A stretch of 64,000 nucleotides of DNA, from contig NC_017946.1 of the NCBI RefSeq assembly GCF_000263735.1, positions 599,348 to 663,347 on the forward strand, in the 5' to 3' direction. This DNA comes from Pyrococcus sp. ST04 (GTDB lineage Archaea; Methanobacteriota_B; Thermococci; Thermococcales; Thermococcaceae). Each line of letters opens with the position of its first letter. The first letter of the stretch is position 1. Under the pieces are notes generated by a model. The model saw nothing but the letters and a program-made list of their open reading frames with translations. It was not told the DNA's origin and did not search any database. Of this stretch, positions 10,436 to 62,900 are shown in pieces. Both the position numbers and the translations under genes were made by a program.

Positions 10436-12145
10436 ATGCCAGAAGAGAAGATCAGCATCTTCGTCAAGGCAGACCTGGATCCAAAGGAGTACATAAGGAA
10501 AACCTTGATTCCTGGCCTTATAGGGTCGGGTGTGATCTTCATAGTTGTTAATATATTCAGCAGGATTGTTGCCCTTCCAACTGGACTTAGGCTTTTCATG
10601 TACTTAATCCCAATAATCCTCGCCATATATGTCACTGCATACCCTTACCTTATGGCCGATTCAAAGAGGATAAGCATAAACTCAAAGCTCCCCTACTTCA
10701 TAACATACTTCGCCGTTCTCTCCACGAGTGAGATCGGGAGGAGTGATCTGCTTAAAGTTTTGGCCAGCGACCCAAAGCTAGGGGCCATAGCAACTGAGCT
10801 TAAGAAGGTTTACATAATAGTTGACAAGCTCCACAGATCAATGCCGGAAGCCTTCAGGTTCCTGGCTAGAAGAACTCCGAGTAGGGTTTTTGCAGATTTC
10901 CTAGACAGGCTTGCTTATTCCCTCGACAGCGGTGTCGAGTTGAAGGATTACCTCTTCCAAGAGCAACAGACGGTTATGGATGACTATCAAACATTCTACG
11001 AGGGAGCCCTCTATGATCTCGACATATTCAAGGAGATATACGAGTCCATCATAATCTCAGTCGTGTTCGCGGCAGCATTCATAATTATAGGGCCATTAAT
11101 TACAGGTCAGAATATAGGGAGGCTCGCCCTCTACCTTATCTTCCTAATCCTCGCCGCTGAAATAGGAACCCTCTTCGTGATAAAGTACAGGATGCCCGAG
11201 GATCCAATATGGGCTGAGGCAAAGGTAAAGACTCCAAGGTATGAAAAGATTAGGAAAGCATTGATAATTTCGATAGCATTGATTCCCGTTGTCTTTTTGG
11301 CTTACTTAACGCTGATAAGGCCAAGATTCTCAATTCCAACACCCTTCGTTATAGCCCTCGTCTTAACCCCCCTTATATACGTGGGAAATGTCGTCAGGAA
11401 GGAGGAAGCATCGATATTTAGGAAAGATGAGAACTTTCCGGCCTTCATAAGAAGCCTTGCATCTTCTCTAGCTGCGAGTGGTGCCTCTTTGCTCCTCGTG
11501 CTCAAGTACCTGAGCGCTCACGACTTTGGAACCCTAACTGAGGATATAAGAGCCCTCTATAGGAGGCTCGCCGTTAGGGTTGATACCCAGAGAGCGTGGG
11601 ACTTCTTCATAGCGGAAACCGGAAGCTGGCTAATTGGTATATTTTCCGAGATATTCAGGGAAAGCCTGAGGCTCGGTGCGGAGCCCGACTATGTTGGAAA
11701 GGTCATAAGCAGAAACTTCGAGAGGCTGGTGAGACTTAGGAGGAAAAGACAGCAGAGCGTTTCAAACTTCATAGGTATAATCCTCGGACTCACCGGTGCA
11801 TTCGCGTTTTCATTGGCAGCCTCGTTCCAAGTAGCGGTCTCGATAAACGACCTCTTCAGCAGACTACAGATACCCACCGAGTACATTGGTGACATAATTC
11901 ACGTAATTCCCCCAAGTGGAATGCAGCTACTAACGATTTCAATGCTCGTTATGATGGTTGCCCACTCGCTTCTCTCTGCAATGGCGATAAAGATAGCCGA
12001 CGGTGGCCACATCTTAGGATCACTCTACTACTTCGTGATACTACTCTGGGTCTTTGCCGCTGGAATGTACGTGGGTCAATCGCTCATGGCGAGGTTCATG
12101 AGCCTTGGTGGGGGAGAGATGATAATACACCTCCTAGGAGGGTGA
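10436..12145 (+). CDS. flaJ: archaellum platform membrane protein FlaJ (ArlJ)
   Basis: A 569-residue polytopic membrane protein with two blocks of membrane helices (near 25-75 and 190-250) separated by cytoplasmic regions, and a further set near the C-terminus (about 275-320 and 435-560). It is the platform that receives archaellins and couples to FlaI. RBS GAGGTGG precedes ATG 10436. Its stop overlaps the upstream start region of the next surface-protein gene, so that gene is probably co-transcribed with the archaellum set. Confidence 0.93.
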   Translation: MPEEKISIFVKADLDPKEYIRKTLIPGLIGSGVIFIVVNIFSRIVALPTGLRLFMYLIPIILAIYVTAYPYLMADSKRISINSKLPYFITYFAVLSTSEIGRSDLLKVLASDPKLGAIATELKKVYIIVDKLHRSMPEAFRFLARRTPSRVFADFLDRLAYSLDSGVELKDYLFQEQQTVMDDYQTFYEGALYDLDIFKEIYESIIISVVFAAAFIIIGPLITGQNIGRLALYLIFLILAAEIGTLFVIKYRMPEDPIWAEAKVKTPRYEKIRKALIISIALIPVVFLAYLTLIRPRFSIPTPFVIALVLTPLIYVGNVVRKEEASIFRKDENFPAFIRSLASSLAASGASLLLVLKYLSAHDFGTLTEDIRALYRRLAVRVDTQRAWDFFIAETGSWLIGIFSEIFRESLRLGAEPDYVGKVISRNFERLVRLRRKRQQSVSNFIGIILGLTGAFAFSLAASFQVAVSINDLFSRLQIPTEYIGDIIHVIPPSGMQLLTISMLVMMVAHSLLSAMAIKIADGGHILGSLYYFVILLWVFAAGMYVGQSLMARFMSLGGGEMIIHLLGG

Positions 12146-12150
12146 GGGTT

Positions 12151-14124
12151 ATGAGGAAGGCAATGCTGCTCCTCGTACTCCTCTTAATGGTTCCCTGGGT
12201 CAGCGCATCATCTTACGTTGGCTGGGTGGGGTTAGGTGATTCGATAACGTTTGGAAACTATACTCTTACTATAATGGACTTTGATCCATCCACAAGGAGC
12301 GTGTACCTACAGCTAAGCACGGGGGAGGGAACATCTTACTATTCCATACCCCTGGGTGATACACTTACTGTGAAGAACGCCTCCATTAAGGTTGAGAGGG
12401 TGTTCTCGGGAAGTGTGGCTAGATTCTACATTAATGCAATGTTCCCCGGGGTTATGGTTGGTGGGGAGGTTAAGGTTGAGAACCTAACCCTTAAAGTTAA
12501 GAGCGTTGAGTGGGACTCCTTTGAAGTGCTAGCCACTTATGAAGGAGAGGAGAAGAGCATAAAGGAATCAAAGGCTGTAATAGGCAACTATTCCGTTTTG
12601 ATAGGCTCAAAGCCCCTAATCTTCAACGGTGAGCTCAAGATAGGTGACAACGTCACCTATGGAGATTACCTTCTCCACATAGATGGGCTAAATATGACGG
12701 TGGTTAATAATGAGACATCCAGCGTTCTAGTTGTATCCTACAATGGAAGTAAATATGAAATTGGGGAGGGAGAGGTTGCGGATATTGGGGTTTTCTTAGT
12801 GAAGTACAACGGGTTCAGGTGTGTAATGGTCAACAACCTTTGTGATCCAAGGATTTCCCTAACGGTTTACCTAAAGGCCCTAAACATAGCCATCTCTTAC
12901 AACCCTGCAACAACTTTCACGGTTTATGAGGGCAAAGATCACGCCATTGGTGATTTCATAGTGAGGGTTAATGGAATTAGCGATAATTACGTTTACCTGT
13001 CTATCTTGAACTCTTGTGGAGACGTCTTATACTCTCAAGTTCTAAGGGCCAATCCTGTTGTAATTCCATCGATTACGTACGACGGAATATCTATAGGTGT
13101 TGCCAACGTATCTGAGGACTCCAATGGAGAGAAGGCTACATTCATAACCTTCTACAACCCAGAAGAAAGGCCGAGGTATCTAGCTCTATTAAACGTGACA
13201 CTGATGCCAATCAACGTTACTGAGCTCGTTCCCAAGGAAATTCAGGTCAGGATAAAGAACATTGGAAACTGGAAAGTGTATGGAATGGTTGCGAAATTTG
13301 AGCCGGGAGATGGTATTGAGGTTCTCGGGGAGGACATGAAGATAATTAAGGAACTTGACGCTGGAAAGGAGGTTACCCTTAAGTTCAAGATCGTCCCCCT
13401 CAAAGCCGGAAACACGACATTGGGGAGGGTAGTTATTGAAGGCCCAGTTCCCTATCCCCTGGCCTGTGGTGGATTAAAGGCCCTCAAGTTCTATTCAAAT
13501 GAGCCGAAAGTGTACGTATCTCCCCTAAACGTCTCTGTTAGTGTGGGATCACCTAAGGAAGTCGTTGTTGGTTCACCCTTTGACATTAACTTCACGATCG
13601 ATGCTCCGAAGGGCTTCGCGGGGATCTTGATGCTTAAGCTTCCCCCAGGAGTTGGAGTTCTTTCGGAGGGAGAAGTGAGGAGTGGAACGTACATTCTACA
13701 GGTGTCTAATGGCACTCATCCTGTGAAGTTAGTTGCCGTAACACCAGGCAACTACACGGTCTCTCTGAGTCTGCAGGCGTTTGGAAAGGAAGTGTACAAG
13801 AGTTCGCTTGAAATCCCGGTTGTGAAATCAAATGGTGGAGTCCAAGTTGTGACTGTAACTAAGACCCTAACCATTGGAAATGGAACTGTGATAACGAAGA
13901 CGGAAACTGTGACAAAGGAAACTACCGTTACTGAAACTAAGAGCGAAGTAAAGACAACCACAAAGACCAGCGTGAGAACACAGGTACTAACGAGGACCGT
14001 AACCCAGACGGTAACTGTAAGTGAGAGAAGCTTTGTTGGTACACTACTAACGTTCCTTATTGGAGCTGGGGTTGGGGCGGGCCTTATAATCCTCATTGCC
14101 TGGATTCAGGCCCGTCGCGCATAG
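12151..14124 (+). CDS. large secreted, C-terminally anchored surface protein at the end of the fla operon
   Basis: A 657-residue protein with an N-terminal signal peptide (MRKAMLLLVLLLMVPWVSA), then about 300 residues of recurring beta units of the type GDxxxFGNYTLxI (visible near the N-terminus and at GDNVTYGDYLLHI and AIGDFIVRV). CARDB/S-layer-like Ig modules follow. A Thr/Val stalk (about 565-625, VTKTLTIG to RTVTQTVTV) leads to a final membrane helix with a short basic tail. Many NxT/S sequons are present. ATG 12151 is preferred to GTG 12142 because GGAGGGTGAGGG is its ribosome site. The tight junction with flaJ suggests an archaellum-related or S-layer role, by context only. Its end overlaps the convergent gene by 32 bp. 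Confidence 0.85.
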   Translation: MRKAMLLLVLLLMVPWVSASSYVGWVGLGDSITFGNYTLTIMDFDPSTRSVYLQLSTGEGTSYYSIPLGDTLTVKNASIKVERVFSGSVARFYINAMFPGVMVGGEVKVENLTLKVKSVEWDSFEVLATYEGEEKSIKESKAVIGNYSVLIGSKPLIFNGELKIGDNVTYGDYLLHIDGLNMTVVNNETSSVLVVSYNGSKYEIGEGEVADIGVFLVKYNGFRCVMVNNLCDPRISLTVYLKALNIAISYNPATTFTVYEGKDHAIGDFIVRVNGISDNYVYLSILNSCGDVLYSQVLRANPVVIPSITYDGISIGVANVSEDSNGEKATFITFYNPEERPRYLALLNVTLMPINVTELVPKEIQVRIKNIGNWKVYGMVAKFEPGDGIEVLGEDMKIIKELDAGKEVTLKFKIVPLKAGNTTLGRVVIEGPVPYPLACGGLKALKFYSNEPKVYVSPLNVSVSVGSPKEVVVGSPFDINFTIDAPKGFAGILMLKLPPGVGVLSEGEVRSGTYILQVSNGTHPVKLVAVTPGNYTVSLSLQAFGKEVYKSSLEIPVVKSNGGVQVVTVTKTLTIGNGTVITKTETVTKETTVTETKSEVKTTTKTSVRTQVLTRTVTQTVTVSERSFVGTLLTFLIGAGVGAGLIILIAWIQARRA

Positions 14125-15025
14125 CCCACCACTCATAAATAACCTGGCCATCTATGACTCCATATATGTCGGCCCCATCTATACGGTAGTGAATTATAGG
14201 GACTCCTAGAATCTTTGATATCTTTTTTAAGCTCTTGTCACTATTCACGACGACCCTAGCACTTATCCCCTTTGGCACTCCTTCAATGGCGCTTATCCTT
14301 CTTCTGGGCTTTGGCTTCCATAGCACTAGTGCAAGTACTCCTGATATTAAGGCTAATATCGGGAACACCAGCCTTGCAGTTGAGACGCTCATGCCAAGTA
14401 GCGTATTGTTTATTGTTATCTTTCTCACGTCGTTGTGCTTCTTCTCTATATCCGTCCCTTTTATGTAGGTAAGTCCACTTACCGGATCGTTCACTATTGG
14501 CATCTCTTGCTTGAACTCTCCAAGGGATGTTCTAACCTTGCTTATTACTTTGATATCGTAGGAAATCCGCGGAAGGCTGAGTGCTTCGGCGAGCCTCTTT
14601 TTCTCTTCCTCGATCTTTGTTAAGTTAACCTCGAACTTCCTTGAAAATGCCCCATCGGATAGCTTGCCCTTGTAGTTGAATATTGTTTCATTTATTAAGT
14701 AAACTTTCTCTTTCCCTTTCGTGACATAATATGAGACCTCACCATAAATCCAGTAGGAGCCTTCCTTTGCTGGAGTTATTGAGTACGAGTAGTTACCATA
14801 AATTGCCTCCGTTATCTTTGTAGGATAGTACCTTAAACTAGCAACCCTCCCAAAGACAGTGTCGTTCTTCAAATAGGCCGAGTGCTCTAAGTGCCCTTCC
14901 TGTACTACCTGGGAAACTAGTTCTTGCTTTTCATAGCTAGGGCTTTCGGTGTATGCAAATACTGTTAAAACGAAAAACAGAACGAAAAAACCTGCAAATA
15001 TGTATTCCTTCCTAACATTTTTCAT
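14093..15025 (-). CDS. DUF5305-like membrane protein of the TasA/SipW module
   Basis: A 310-residue protein with an N-terminal membrane helix (YIFAGFFVLFFVLTVFAY), an ectodomain of about 190 residues, a second helix (TARLVFPILALISGVLALVLW) and a basic cytoplasmic tail of about 90 residues. This layout matches DUF5305 proteins, which occur beside SipW-type peptidases and TasA-like proteins in archaea; I make that match from memory. ATG 15025 is preferred because ATG 15070 would overlap the upstream gene by 59 bp. Last gene of the minus-strand cluster. Confidence 0.7.
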   Translation of the reverse strand: MKNVRKEYIFAGFFVLFFVLTVFAYTESPSYEKQELVSQVVQEGHLEHSAYLKNDTVFGRVASLRYYPTKITEAIYGNYSYSITPAKEGSYWIYGEVSYYVTKGKEKVYLINETIFNYKGKLSDGAFSRKFEVNLTKIEEEKKRLAEALSLPRISYDIKVISKVRTSLGEFKQEMPIVNDPVSGLTYIKGTDIEKKHNDVRKITINNTLLGMSVSTARLVFPILALISGVLALVLWKPKPRRRISAIEGVPKGISARVVVNSDKSLKKISKILGVPIIHYRIDGADIYGVIDGQVIYEWWAMRDGPESRQ

Positions 15026-15458
15026 TATGTCCACAACCACAACTTTTAACAATCCTCGCGCTTCCTCCATTCCATTTGGCAGTTACTATGAAAGTGGAAC
15101 TCCTGCACCCTCTCCTCTTTAAGACAACCTCACTCTCTCCGGGTTGCAGGAAGAAGGTAGTCGTAAAGTTCCCCTTGCTACAGTCCACCTCAACCTTTAT
15201 TGTTTCATCTAGATTGTTTGTTACCCTTATCCCTCTCCCATGCCTATGCTTATCCTTGCACGTAGAGTTGAGAGTAAAGTTGAGATGGCAGGGGCAATGG
15301 TGATAGTTAATGCACTCCACATCTATGAAAGGATCATCCGAAAATCCAACGACAATGCTCCTCGTTGCGCTGTACTCTCTGAAGTGAGAGCTCACGGATA
15401 CTGAAGCAAATATAAATCCGATGACTATGAATATTATGCCTAAAGCTTTCCTAATCAA
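15012..15458 (-). CDS. small Cys/His-rich secreted protein of the TasA/SipW module
   Basis: A 148-residue protein with a hydrophobic N-terminal signal segment (ALGIIFIVIGFIFASVSVSS) followed by HFREYSATRSIVV. That motif resembles the post-signal region of the two DUF1102-like subunits upstream (NFRYFEASRDVNV and NFRDYNASRSVHW). It carries nine cysteines, four near residues 49-67 and three at the extreme C-terminus (CGCGHNEKC), plus His clusters. The start is TTG 15458, seven bases after GGGAGGT, overlapping the SipW stop as TTGA. Likely a disulfide- or metal-stabilised minor subunit or adaptor of the same fibre, by inference. Confidence 0.75.
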   Translation of the reverse strand: MIRKALGIIFIVIGFIFASVSVSSHFREYSATRSIVVGFSDDPFIDVECINYHHCPCHLNFTLNSTCKDKHRHGRGIRVTNNLDETIKVEVDCSKGNFTTTFFLQPGESEVVLKRRGCRSSTFIVTAKWNGGSARIVKSCGCGHNEKC

Positions 15459-16429
15459 ATTCTAAACCTCCCTATAACTTCTGGCTCTCCCAGGAGTGGT
15501 TTCAGCAGTAGTAGGGCGAAGAACACTATGAGCCCCTCGACAAGCAGGGGTAGGTAAGGGTTTATGTTGTACATGGAGAGGACGAGGTCTTTGGGTAGTA
15601 TTGGGTAGTAAGAGTGGACGTTAACTGCTTCCGTATATACTCTAGTCTCGAGGGGAACATCTATATTTGCCTTTACGTTTACCTCCTCTCTACCCTTGAG
15701 AATCATTACATCCTTGCTCACAATCTTCCCATCCACTACTAGGACCATTGGAATAAGTGCATTGTTCCTTATCGTGATATTCCTCTCAATGATACTACCG
15801 GGTAAATACCAACCTTCTCTCTGTCCCCCTGCCATCGTTGAGGCGTATGTTATCTCCACCTTTCCCCAGTTCATTGAACCTACGAATATCATTGAGAGCA
15901 CTAGGAGAGCGGATAATGCTGTATAAAGATTCGCGCTATCAATGACGATAACTTTTCTCCTCTTTTTCCTCCTCTGCTCTCCACTTGCAAGGAGTAACCC
16001 CCCAACAAGTGTGAGGGCTATTGCTCCTATCGGGGAATTTAGGTGCTTTCCAAGTTCAGGTATCTTAAGTGGCTTCCCTCCTATGGTTATTACCTTCCCA
16101 ATTATTTGATCCTCCTTAATGGGTGGGTTTTTGCCACCTTGCTGATCTGTGGCAACATTGTTGTCTCCCTTGGTTATGTAGCCTTCGCTAGTTATCGCAT
16201 AAACTCTATGAACCGTCCACTTTCCCGAGAGGTTGAAGACTATTATATCTCCAACGTCCCCCTTGGCTAGCGGGTTTATGAAGAAAACATCCCACCTCTT
16301 TAATGTGGGATACATGCTGTCCGAGTAAACATATGACACGAAGACGGGCCTTCCCACAATGAATCCAATTACAGAAGGAATCAACACCGCCATAACGAAT
16401 GACATCATAATAACTTCGGAGGCCCGCAT
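15455..16429 (-). CDS. SipW-like signal peptidase I with C-terminal extracytoplasmic domain
   Basis: A 324-residue protein. Residues 1-125 are an S26 signal peptidase of the SipW/Sec11 (Ser-His) type: membrane helix, catalytic Ser38 in SDSMYP, His74 in WTVHRV, and KGDNN. A membrane helix (IGAIALTLVGGLLLASG), a basic linker, another helix, an external beta domain of about 130 residues and a terminal helix follow. Bacterial SipW processes TasA-type fibre proteins, so this is probably the dedicated peptidase for the two subunits just upstream. ATG 16429 follows GGTGA. A hairpin-plus-U signal separates it from the subunit genes. Confidence 0.88.
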   Translation of the reverse strand: MRASEVIMMSFVMAVLIPSVIGFIVGRPVFVSYVYSDSMYPTLKRWDVFFINPLAKGDVGDIIVFNLSGKWTVHRVYAITSEGYITKGDNNVATDQQGGKNPPIKEDQIIGKVITIGGKPLKIPELGKHLNSPIGAIALTLVGGLLLASGEQRRKKRRKVIVIDSANLYTALSALLVLSMIFVGSMNWGKVEITYASTMAGGQREGWYLPGSIIERNITIRNNALIPMVLVVDGKIVSKDVMILKGREEVNVKANIDVPLETRVYTEAVNVHSYYPILPKDLVLSMYNINPYLPLLVEGLIVFFALLLLKPLLGEPEVIGRFRI

Positions 16430-16451
16430 CTCAATTCACCAAGAAGGAATA

Positions 16452-16472
16452 TAAAAAGGAGCCGAAGCTCCT
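16452..16472 (-). terminator. hairpin with T tract after the second fibre-subunit gene
   Basis: On the minus strand AGGAGC-TTCG-GCTCCT, a perfect 6-bp stem with a stable TTCG tetraloop, is followed by TTTTTA. It begins at the last bases of the subunit stop codon (16472-16474) and lies 22 bp before the SipW start. It could act as a partial terminator or 3' stabiliser that sets subunit-to-peptidase ratio. Confidence 0.75.
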
Positions 16473-17002
16473 CACTGCTGGCATGCACCTGCTTCTGCAT
16501 TTATGTCTATCTGGATTTGTTCTGAGCCCAGATCCATCCCTGTCGTGTTGAAGATCATTCCAACTTTAACCGGATCGTTGTGGTATACTGTAAACTTGAT
16601 CTGGTCACTTGGTCCTGCAGTTGGGTTGTCGTAGCTTCCAGTAAATAGCTTAACTCCCTCATCGGCCTTAATAGTAACACAGATTGGGTAATCTCCGCCC
16701 TCATTTTCCCAAAGCTCGTTGCTTACCTCAAACATTTCCTCAAACACGTAGATCGTGTCAGGGCTGAGGCCAGCTCCATATCCTGGGTAGTCTGGATGGT
16801 TGCTTGAGATCTCGACGGTCATCTTTCCATTGTTCAAGTACACATAGGGTTGCAGTGGGGTTAGGTCTATTAACTCGTTGTCATCCGCCACTATGGCGAC
16901 GTTAACATCTCTACTTGCCTCAAAATACCTGAAGTTGGCTCCAGCGCCAACTGCCAACATAAGCCCTGCAAGGAACAGGGCAATTCCAAACAACTTATTC
17001 AT
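16472..17002 (-). CDS. DUF1102/TasA-like secreted fibre subunit (second)
   Basis: A 176-residue protein with a signal peptide (GIALFLAGLMLAVGAGA) and the characteristic NFRYFEASRDVNVAIV immediately after it, then a beta-sandwich domain. It is a clear paralogue of the protein encoded just upstream (shared DDxELIDL, LQPYxY, PxYPGYGxGxSP and SNxLWE blocks). DUF1102 proteins are secreted archaeal proteins related to TasA/camelysin, and archaeal bundling pilins belong to the same fold group. ATG 17002 follows AGGAGGTATGAGAA. Confidence 0.83.
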   Translation of the reverse strand: MNKLFGIALFLAGLMLAVGAGANFRYFEASRDVNVAIVADDNELIDLTPLQPYVYLNNGKMTVEISSNHPDYPGYGAGLSPDTIYVFEEMFEVSNELWENEGGDYPICVTIKADEGVKLFTGSYDNPTAGPSDQIKFTVYHNDPVKVGMIFNTTGMDLGSEQIQIDINAEAGACQQ

Positions 17003-17016
17003 TTCTCATACCTCCT

Positions 17017-17622
17017 TCACGGCTGTCCGCACTTGCCTGCTAGCTCAGCAGGCTCAGTGCCCAGCCTATATGCTTTAATCTCTAAACTTCCAGTCCAGAA
17101 GTCTCCTGGACTGTCTCCATTTGCTGAAAGATCAACACCAATCTTCACTGTCTGTCCGTGTGACACCACAAAGCATACCCAATCTCTAGCTGAGTCGCTT
17201 GCTGATGCTAGGGTACCATCATATGCTGAATATACGTCTCCATCTGCTCCATACAGCTCTACGTGTGAGTTGGTGGACTTTATCTCAACGACAATGTCCA
17301 TATCTTCTTCCCAAAGGTGGTTGCTGACTCCAAAAACTTCGTCAAAGTTGTATTCCGCTGCGGGGCTTATTCCGTTCCCGTAGCCTGGGTAGTTGGGGTT
17401 GCTTGGAGAGAAGTCTATGACAAGCTTTCCTGTAGTTGTATTTATGTATGCATATGGCTGAAGTGCTACTAGGTCTATTAACTCAGTATCATCACTCACG
17501 ATATCCCAATGGACACTTCTGCTTGCGTTGTAGTCCCTAAAGTTGGCCCCAGCCCCTAAAACGAGACCAAAGACGGCCAACAAGCCAAGTATGGCAATTC
17601 CAAATCTATTCACTTTTTCCAT
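17017..17622 (-). CDS. DUF1102/TasA-like secreted fibre subunit (first)
   Basis: A 201-residue protein with signal peptide (FGIAILGLLAVFGLVLGAGA) and mature start NFRDYNASRSVHWDIV. It is about 25 residues longer than its paralogue, mainly through a segment around residues 125-150 (DGDVYSAYDG). As promoter-proximal gene with its own 5' hairpin it is probably the most abundant product of the cluster. The paired paralogues could form a donor-strand-exchanged heteropolymer like TasA fibres; that is inference. ATG 17622 follows GGTTAGGAG. Confidence 0.83.
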   Translation of the reverse strand: MEKVNRFGIAILGLLAVFGLVLGAGANFRDYNASRSVHWDIVSDDTELIDLVALQPYAYINTTTGKLVIDFSPSNPNYPGYGNGISPAAEYNFDEVFGVSNHLWEEDMDIVVEIKSTNSHVELYGADGDVYSAYDGTLASASDSARDWVCFVVSHGQTVKIGVDLSANGDSPGDFWTGSLEIKAYRLGTEPAELAGKCGQP

Positions 17623-17635
17623 CTCCTAACCTTCG

Positions 17636-17735
17636 AGGTCCCACGGTTGTGGAACCTAACATGTGTTTGAACCTTCAAGTATATAGGTAGTTTCAAATTA
17701 ATTCCCAGGGCACTTCTGGTAACCAGTAGTTACCA
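17636..17735 (-). promoter_or_regulatory. promoter, operator-like palindrome and 5'-terminal hairpin of fibre operon
   Basis: Reading the minus strand, an inverted repeat TGGTAAC-TACTG-GTTACCA (17735-17717) lies about 30 bp upstream of a TATA box CTATATAC (17686-17679) with a BRE-like GAAACTAC. The expected transcription start about 25 bases on (near 17657) coincides with AGGTTCCAC-AACC-GTGGGACCT (17657-17636). This 9-bp stem has a single G/T wobble and a 4-base loop, so the mRNA would begin with a hairpin just upstream of the ribosome site. Confidence 0.65.
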
Positions 17736-17788: not shown

Positions 17789-18247
17789 TTATCTTCTTTC
17801 AACAATCTTGCTCCAGTGGGCGAGGGCTAGTCCGAGTAATATGAGGGATATTATAACCCCCTCTCCACTCCCCCTAAGTAGGGAGAATATTAGTCCAATA
17901 CAGGAGAAGCATGCATATATTATTGGCCACATGCTTGATGACTTCTCAATGTCAATGTACTTGTCAACCTCCTTAGGAACATTTACTAGCATTATCCTTC
18001 CCCTTTCAACCTTAATTATCCCTTCTCTCTCCATCTTAGGGAGATGAGTTTGGACAAGGCTTACATATATGCTCTTTCTATGTCTCCTGCTTTCATTCCC
18101 TTCCATCTTTGCGATGTAATCAACGAGTTGACTTATTTCGGCTGTATTATTGTTTTTTCTTAAAAATTCAACAACCATAAACCTTCTATCGTTGCCAAGA
18201 ATGATTGAAGATGAGGAATTCTCTAAGAAAAAATGGGGAATTATCAA
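17789..18247 (-). CDS. membrane-anchored winged-HTH protein (DUF7344-like), candidate regulator of fibre genes
   Basis: A 152-residue protein starting MIIPHFF from TTG 18247 (GGTGA five bases upstream); GTG 18256 is an alternative adding three residues. Residues about 20-90 form a winged HTH (LGNDRRFMVVEFLRKNN, HRKSIYVSLVQTHLPKMEREGIIKVE) resembling archaeal DUF7344. Two membrane helices follow near residues 105-145. It lies at the head of the minus-strand fibre cluster, separated by 166 bp containing the operator-like palindrome. Membrane-linked control of the fibre operon is an inference. Confidence 0.72.
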   Translation of the reverse strand: MIIPHFFLENSSSSIILGNDRRFMVVEFLRKNNNTAEISQLVDYIAKMEGNESRRHRKSIYVSLVQTHLPKMEREGIIKVERGRIMLVNVPKEVDKYIDIEKSSSMWPIIYACFSCIGLIFSLLRGSGEGVIISLILLGLALAHWSKIVERR

Positions 18248-18406
18248 GTTTATCACCTTAGTTCTTCTTTGTGTTCCTAAACTATATTAAGGTTTTGGAG
18301 TCACTTTCAGTTTTTAAAAATTCTCTAATTCCGTTATTTTCATTGAAATTTTTCAAAATAACCGTAAAGCTTAAAAATTCACTCTCTTGACTAAAAATTG
18401 AGCCAT

Positions 18407-26448: not shown

Positions 26449-27003
26449 ATGCTAACGATAGCCCTCTACAACACTTACGATGTAAGGAGGTTGCACGAGG
26501 CACATATAAGGGCAATAGCCAGAGCTGCTCCCGTGGCTTACGCCTTTAATTTTCACCTAGCATTAGTTGGATTTCCATTTGAGAGTGATGATCCCAATGA
26601 AGTTGCTACCGATGTTGCCTCAACAACTACTGTTGGGGAAGGGGGGAAGTATCTGCTTGAACTAGCGAAAACGAATAAGTTTCACCTCCTGGACTTTCCT
26701 GAGAGAGGTTTTCCTCCACAATTCGGCATTCCTATAGCTACAACCTCAAGGCCTTCCAAGGATAAGGTCATAAAAACGTTGGATGTTGCTGAGATGGCGC
26801 TCTCGGGAAGGAGTGTGCTGTTGATAATAGGTCTTGGTAGGCACGGTCTACCCAAGGAAGTACTTAAAATTTCTAAGTACCATTTGGACATAACGGACGG
26901 TATGGGAGTTAGCCTTGAAACATGCACAGCAATCGGCATAATTCCCGTGAAAATTAGAACCTTAATGGAGGCGCTAAAATGGATGAAAAGGTCAAGGAAA
27001 TAG
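26449..27003 (+). CDS. DUF531-family protein, SPOUT-like
   Basis: A 184-residue archaeal protein resembling DUF531. Its C-terminal half (LLIIGLGRHGLPKEVL, then DITDGMGVSLETCTAIGIIP) looks like the knotted SAM-binding region of SPOUT RNA methyltransferases. The substrate is unknown. ATG 26449 appears leaderless. The last 25 bp overlap the signal peptidase gene. Confidence 0.72.
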   Translation: MLTIALYNTYDVRRLHEAHIRAIARAAPVAYAFNFHLALVGFPFESDDPNEVATDVASTTTVGEGGKYLLELAKTNKFHLLDFPERGFPPQFGIPIATTSRPSKDKVIKTLDVAEMALSGRSVLLIIGLGRHGLPKEVLKISKYHLDITDGMGVSLETCTAIGIIPVKIRTLMEALKWMKRSRK

Positions 27004-27433
27004 TATCAACCCTGCTAGTGATCATAGTAACGCTCTCGATTTACTTTGGACTCAAAGTTGTTCTCCATACAAGTAGCCCATTGGTAGTCGTGGTGAGTGG
27101 CTCCATGGAGCCCGTATTCTACAGGGGCGATATCGTAGTCTTAAAAGGGGTAAGGCCCGAGGAAGTTAAAGTTGGTGACGTTGTGGTTTATAAGAGCCCA
27201 ATAGCTAGGTATCCGATAATTCATAGGGTGAGGAAGATAGAGGTTGTTAATATCAATGGAAGGAACGAGCTCTGCTTTGTGACGTGGGGTGATCATAATC
27301 CTGTTCCTGACATATATCCAACCCCCTACGGAATCCTCGACTGCGTTCCGGCAGATGCCATAGAGGCAAAAGCTTTGCTGGTAATTCCAAAGATAGGGAT
27401 AATATCCATAAAAGTTAGGGAGCTCTTTGGCGG

Positions 27434-62315: not shown

Positions 62316-62900
62316 ATGAAAGAGTTAGAACATAGAAAAGTTCTGGGTGTGCTGATTATTCTTGCTGTACTTGCGGTCTTTAGTTTGGCTCATGTCAGGG
62401 GAAATTTCTCTGACGTAGCAACATCGGAAGGAAATAAAGTATCGAGCGCTGAGTTCGATGTAAGAATAAGCAAGGATGGCAAAAGGTTCTATGACTCAAC
62501 AAAGATATTCTCGATAGATGACATGAAGCCAGGGGAAACTAAAGAGTTCACCTTTTATGTGAAGAACTATGGTGAGATTGAGATATCTAATGTTTCCCTA
62601 TTCCTGAAAGTTAAGGACATAGAAGACGAAATTTCCCCAGCAGAGAAGCCACATGACATGACTGAAGACGTTGGAGAGCTTAGTAGCTGTTTAGTGCTTA
62701 GGATTTATTCGAACGGAACTAAAGTCACCGAGGGGAGGCTATCTGAACTTGCTGGGAAGAAAATATCTCTATTCTCGGGAACTCTAAAGAGCGGGGAAAA
62801 GTTTCTAGTAAGGCTTCATTTGACCTTCGACAAGAACGCTGGGAATGAGTGCATGACTGACAGTGTTGAGGTTTATATTAAGATCGTCGCTGTTCAATAA
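62316..62900 (+). CDS. solitary TasA/camelysin-like secreted protein
   Basis: A 194-residue protein with an N-terminal hydrophobic signal (VLGVLIILAVLAVFSLA) followed by HVRGNFSDVATSEGNKVSSAEFDVRI. This resembles the TasA-family region after SipW-type signals (GTFAYFSDxExSxxNxFxAGxLDL). A beta-sandwich core with FYVKNYGEIEISNVSLFLKV follows, then a Cys pair (CLVL, ECMTDS). It is likely exported and processed by the SipW-like enzyme at 15455-16429. ATG 62316 after CGGTGAATTA. Confidence 0.8.
   Translation: MKELEHRKVLGVLIILAVLAVFSLAHVRGNFSDVATSEGNKVSSAEFDVRISKDGKRFYDSTKIFSIDDMKPGETKEFTFYVKNYGEIEISNVSLFLKVKDIEDEISPAEKPHDMTEDVGELSSCLVLRIYSNGTKVTEGRLSELAGKKISLFSGTLKSGEKFLVRLHLTFDKNAGNECMTDSVEVYIKIVAVQ

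Follow-up and report, generated by a model that had tools for sequence, protein, structure and literature searches.

A conserved DUF1102 gene set in Pyrococcus sp. ST04 likely to encode a TasA/AbpA-type filament with its own SipW-like signal peptidase

The closest described counterparts of the locus considered here are the TasA-type fibres of Bacillus and the bundling pilus of Pyrobaculum. SipW cuts TasA, which carries a phenylalanine at P2' and which the Escherichia coli peptidase LepB processes poorly (PMC10269814); its donor strand makes contacts via F29 and I32 (PMC9674648). In Bacillus cereus, two camelysins occur with one SipW (PMC10151520). The Pyrobaculum subunit AbpA is described, in two papers that cite it, as forming a TasA-related donor-strand filament (PMC9674648, PMC9715654). 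Here, a gene set of Pyrococcus sp. ST04 is compared with these systems. The window, that is the whole stretch of 64,000 nucleotides that was analysed, comprises bases 599348-663347 of the closed 1,736,885-base genome, and its minus strand carries, in order of transcription, genes for a DUF7344 regulator, two DUF1102 subunits (D1 and D2), a signal peptidase I, a small protein called X and a DUF5305 protein:

17789-18256, minus strand: DUF7344 winged-helix regulator of 155 aa, first gene of the cassette (PF24035, 60.5 bits)
17677-17697, minus strand: TATA-like AT-rich stretch upstream of D1, a possible archaeal promoter, read by eye
17017-17622, minus strand: D1, DUF1102 subunit of 201 aa, first of the tandem pair (PF06510, 180.7 bits, E 2.2e-53)
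17518-17544, minus strand: D1 residues 27-35, NFRDYNASR, where the mature protein is predicted to begin, with Phe at P2' followed three positions on by an aromatic residue
16472-17002, minus strand: D2, second DUF1102 subunit, 176 aa (PF06510, 180.4 bits, E 2.8e-53)
16910-16936, minus strand: D2 residues 23-31, NFRYFEASR, post-signal motif
15455-16429, minus strand: SipW-like ER-type signal peptidase of 324 aa (TIGR02228 above cut-off, invariant residues)
15548-15871, minus strand: additional ectodomain, about residues 187-294 of the peptidase, flanked by membrane segments three and four
15012-15458, minus strand: X, Cys-rich minor subunit-like protein of 148 aa (alignment; profile match to the DUF1102 family)
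15360-15386, minus strand: X residues 25-33, HFREYSATR, post-signal motif
14093-15025, minus strand: DUF5305-family membrane protein of 310 aa (PF17231 via orthologues; AlphaFold2 model)

The original prediction, made from the letters of the window, had placed a five-gene minus-strand cluster at 14093-17622, and all five reading frames were found there, although the DUF5305 gene likely starts at 15025 (judged by eye) and not at 15070. It had overlooked the DUF7344 gene on the same strand, 166 bases upstream of D1, which belongs to the gene set as its sixth member. From D1 to the DUF5305 gene the reading frames are separated by gaps of 14 and 42 bases and then by two short overlaps, as expected of a single transcript. 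A scan for bacterial-type promoters and terminators upstream of D1, which is unsuitable for archaea, returned nothing. At the other end, the DUF5305 gene converges, with a 32-base overlap, on a plus-strand gene (12142-14124) for a 660-aa secreted protein whose C-terminal membrane helix follows a Thr-rich stretch; this gene adjoins arlJ, and in the BLAST map and the loci read it stands beside arlJ in Pyrococcus only.

D1 and D2 share 42% identity and both lie far above the 22.2-bit gathering cut-off of PF06510 (DUF1102), so that the two paralogous subunits of the original prediction are borne out. The D1 model obtained with AlphaFold2 and 50 relatives (pLDDT 84, pTM 0.72) consists of a signal helix and a beta-rich domain; in this monomer the pLDDT falls below 50 over residues 27-34, a portion of the presumed donor strand. 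When the model was compared with 350,542 PDB chains, the top match was AbpA of the Pyrobaculum bundling pilus (7UEG_A, E 4.9e-5, probability 1.00); the six matches at E<=0.001 were AbpA and five self-complemented, donor-strand FimA chains, and the ninth match was the cannula subunit 9bab. A relationship of the fold to TasA/AbpA had been set as a check on the original prediction, and the ranking agrees with it. The full-length TM-score of D1 to AbpA is low (0.33-0.36, rmsd 10), possibly because of a differing strand placement between monomer and filament. Beta-sandwich proteins draw loose structural matches. Sequence searches against PDB structures detected no similarity of D1 or D2 to TasA or AbpA, and the link to these proteins thus rests on fold and motif; at E<=10 none of D1, D2 and X matched the TasA/camelysin family PF12389, and a viral fold library searched with the D1 model gave nothing at E<=0.001. 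Taken as a structural prediction, D1 would have a beta-sandwich pilin fold like that of AbpA.

The motif lies immediately after the hydrophobic N-terminus, as GAGA-NFRDYNASR in D1, GAGA-NFRYFEASR in D2 and VSS-HFREYSATR in X. The original prediction had given X the same motif as the subunits; a Phe-x-x-aromatic pattern is indeed common to the three proteins, whereas the string HFREYSATR itself differs from those of D1 and D2. Among the 173 reading frames of at least 60 aa in the window, this pattern after a hydrophobic N-terminus was found in three, which are D1, D2 and X. It is also present in 117 of 138 DUF1102 proteins of Thermococcales and Archaeoglobi, with Tyr or Phe always three residues past the Phe, and most X proteins of both groups likewise carry Phe at P2' and an aromatic residue three positions on; the third-position subunit D3 of relatives usually does without it. 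The spacing agrees with that of F29 and I32 in TasA. Elsewhere in the window (62316-62900, plus strand), a separate secreted protein matching PF12389 at 27.3 bits starts with GNFSDVATSEG, with Phe at a P2'-like place and no adjoining peptidase gene; the operon peptidase may act on this protein as well.

This peptidase exceeds the cut-off of NCBIfam TIGR02228 (68.8 bits) and reaches 29.2 bits on the SipW equivalog NF046067, far below its cut-off of 190; judged by these models, it is SipW-like and not SipW in the strict sense. Ser38, His74, Asp89 and Asp95 do not vary across 20 relatives, an ER-type arrangement in which Ser-His replaces Ser-Lys. Four membrane segments are predicted, and about 105 residues separate the last two, so that the anticipated SipW-like enzyme with an ectodomain of its own is recovered; this stretch would be extracellular if the RRKKRRK sequence between segments 2 and 3 is cytoplasmic. 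Homology of the ectodomain to D, X or DUF5305 was considered and dropped, since profile comparisons with all three gave a probability of at most 21%. The genome holds exactly one other such peptidase, a 160-aa housekeeping-type enzyme (window 26985-27422, plus strand) that scores 147.6 bits on the family model as against 70.4 bits for the operon peptidase. The operon enzyme is the one linked to three proteins with a common motif, and we infer that it cuts D1, D2 and X.

X of the window has 148 aa and 9 Cys, and other Pyrococcus X proteins are similarly short (123-148 aa) and usually Cys-rich; in Thermococcus and Archaeoglobi most have 270-460 aa, with an N-terminal domain besides the motif and a second domain, for which 9 of 25 members have a DUF11 match. 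Compared as profiles, X and DUF1102 gave 98.7% probability over 134 columns and still 82.7% when signal and motif were removed, on which grounds X is probably a divergent subunit. As for the DUF5305 label of the original prediction, the family proved right through the orthologues, 22 of 24 of which match PF17231 (best 2.9e-13), whereas the window copy alone has no match. Its AlphaFold2 model (pLDDT 93.5) shows a membrane helix, a beta-rich ectodomain, a second membrane helix and a small cytoplasmic alpha/beta domain; against the PDB it gave loose Ig/Fn3-like matches, none at E<=0.001. This topology and the constant linkage point to an anchor or assembly base. Two C-terminal membrane helices are predicted for the DUF7344 protein (residues 109-127 and 134-152), and the regulator may thus be membrane-tethered.

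The composition of the cluster had been thought distinctive, but it is not particular to this genome, being conserved in Thermococcales, in many Archaeoglobi and probably in haloarchaea. Of 94 Thermococcaceae genomes, 87 encode DUF1102 proteins (72 of 74 when only good genomes are counted), as do 25 of 59 Archaeoglobi genomes; the 14 control genomes gave none. The order wHTH-D1-D2-(D3)-SipW-X-DUF5305 is kept in all 20 Thermococcaceae loci read, with the peptidase of one (L047) reading as two overlapping frames. All 19 Archaeoglobi loci combine at least two DUF1102 genes with SipW, X and DUF5305, and 14 of them have the regulator; in a few, X precedes SipW or the DUF5305 gene is inverted. In a tree of 91 subunits the paralogues sort by operon position (4 changes as against 40 in shuffles), which indicates that the division between D1 and D2 is old. 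In the D1 and D2 parts of this tree, sequences from Thermococcales and Archaeoglobi intermingle in corresponding patterns, and for this reason the cassette has probably passed between them as one unit. Two Archaeoglobi loci (L094 and L095) nest with a Thermococcales type (L040-L042, L045, L048 and L051) in both the D1 and the D2 trees, a placement that suggests whole-cassette transfer.

Weaker DUF1102 relatives were returned by a search of 394 genomes, in genomes of 2.5-4.4 Mb. Among the 14 such loci read (L123-L136), which are probably haloarchaeal, 11 have SipW and DUF5305 and 11 have the regulator. Their subunits carry Tat-like RR signals followed by GAFSSVEADR-type motifs, and from these signals they may fold before export. 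One Archaeoglobi locus (L091:8958-10526, minus strand), with a near copy in L093, encodes a protein that combines a DUF1102 domain with a vWA domain of the integrin-beta type and an NPCBM-associated domain, resembling an adhesive tip subunit.

The match of the D1 fold to AbpA and FimA, the Phe-P2' motif, the existence of a second, housekeeping peptidase, the fixed gene order and the sorting of paralogues by position, all computed here together with gene content and family membership, lead us to regard it as likely that the operon builds a Sec-exported donor-strand filament of the TasA/AbpA type with its own peptidase, minor subunit and membrane anchor. D1 and D2 (and D3 in relatives) would be its beta-sandwich subunits. 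The ER-type peptidase, acting as a dedicated enzyme, would cut signal peptides with Phe at P2' and thereby free an N-terminal strand, NFR.[YF], which would complete the sandwich of the next subunit by donor-strand exchange. X, which has an N-terminus of the same kind and a related domain, is likely to act as starter, cap or connector, and the DUF5305 protein with its two membrane helices, together with the peptidase ectodomain, likely forms the base at the cell surface. The possibly membrane-tethered DUF7344 protein is likely the regulator. Such a filament might serve in biofilms or in cell-cell contact.

The most substantial rival sees the subunits as secreted beta-sandwich proteins that form no polymer, associated with the S-layer or a matrix, and X and the DUF5305 protein as their envelope partners. 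Beta-sandwich folds are common at archaeal surfaces, the TM-scores of D1 to AbpA are low, and the DUF11 domain of X relatives and the vWA domain of the Archaeoglobi subunit are usual in envelope proteins. Nevertheless, we consider this explanation unlikely, given that every one of the six chains matched in the PDB at E<=0.001 is a donor-strand pilin, and that a fixed set of two or three small conserved subunits, accompanied by an apparently dedicated peptidase and with a constrained N-terminus, is typical of polymers. A polymer of another shape, a tube or cannula-like network of the Pyrodictium/Hyperthermus type in place of a thin bundling pilus, would suit a hyperthermophilic host and would account for the ninth rank of 9bab, but AbpA and FimA both outscore that chain and such a network appears improbable. 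Poorer still are the prospects of the cluster being part of the neighbouring archaellum or type IV pilus machinery, which is suggested by arlJ (10436-12145) ending about 2 kb away: the D1 beta-sandwich has no long pilin helix, the operon peptidase is a signal peptidase I and not a prepilin peptidase, and the BLAST map shows no arlJ beside the cassette outside Pyrococcus. On fold and peptidase type, membership of a type IV pilus was rejected.

Beyond the TasA/AbpA-type filament, a bolder version of it would be a widespread archaeal filament with a build of its own, in which two or three distinct subunits (D1, D2 and D3) are anciently separate, a DUF5305 protein and a peptidase whose ectodomain serves as assembly platform make up the membrane base, and a tethered regulator senses assembly; we offer this tentatively and rather doubt it. 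Were it true, it would be a third route of donor-strand assembly besides chaperone-usher and TapA-TasA. The operon occurs in nearly every Thermococcaceae genome examined and takes its subunits from a family without an assigned function, DUF1102. The analysis offers a likely fold, system and role for this family, and likely roles for DUF5305 and for a group of DUF7344 regulators. If the filament is of the TasA type, a conserved multi-gene cassette would carry the TasA/SipW fibre principle into two or three euryarchaeal groups.

Pfam assigns no function to DUF1102, the family to which D1 and D2 clearly belong, and in the literature searched neither a mention of DUF1102 nor a filament of this family was found. 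Ten of 50 D-family proteins match NCBIfam TafA (NF052520) weakly (best 1.3e-5) and three of 50 match TafE (NF052522). The best TafA score, from a Thermococcus relative, is 25.4 bits against a cut-off of 190, with D2 of the window at 14 bits and D1 without a match, and the best TafE score is 16 bits against a cut-off of 155. These sub-threshold matches to TafA and a 'TafE fimbrial adapter' suggest a related archaeal fimbria named elsewhere; the literature searched did not reveal where the Taf names come from. AbpA of Pyrobaculum is the best PDB fold match of D1 and likewise comes from an archaeal hyperthermophile, although no sequence similarity between it and D1 or D2 was detected in the PDB search. 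Like the tapA-sipW-tasA operon of Bacillus subtilis, the cassette has secreted subunits, predicted to be beta-sandwiches, and an ER-type peptidase, probably a dedicated one, and TasA, D1 and D2 all have Phe at P2' and a hydrophobic residue three positions on. Unlike the Bacillus systems, the cassette has subunits that do not match PF12389, no TapA homologue was identified in it, four membrane segments and an additional ectodomain distinguish its peptidase, and it includes DUF5305 and DUF7344 partners as well as an X related to the subunits. The X gene adjoins the SipW-like gene. The parallel drawn in the original prediction with TapA-SipW-TasA stands for the parts, the apparently dedicated peptidase and the Phe-P2' motif, and does not extend to a homologous TapA or to gene order. 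The sipW-calY1-calY2 locus of B. cereus, like the cassette, has two subunit paralogues (PMC10151520), and by this analogy the arrangement of two subunits with one peptidase is closer to calY1/calY2/sipW than to tapA-sipW-tasA.
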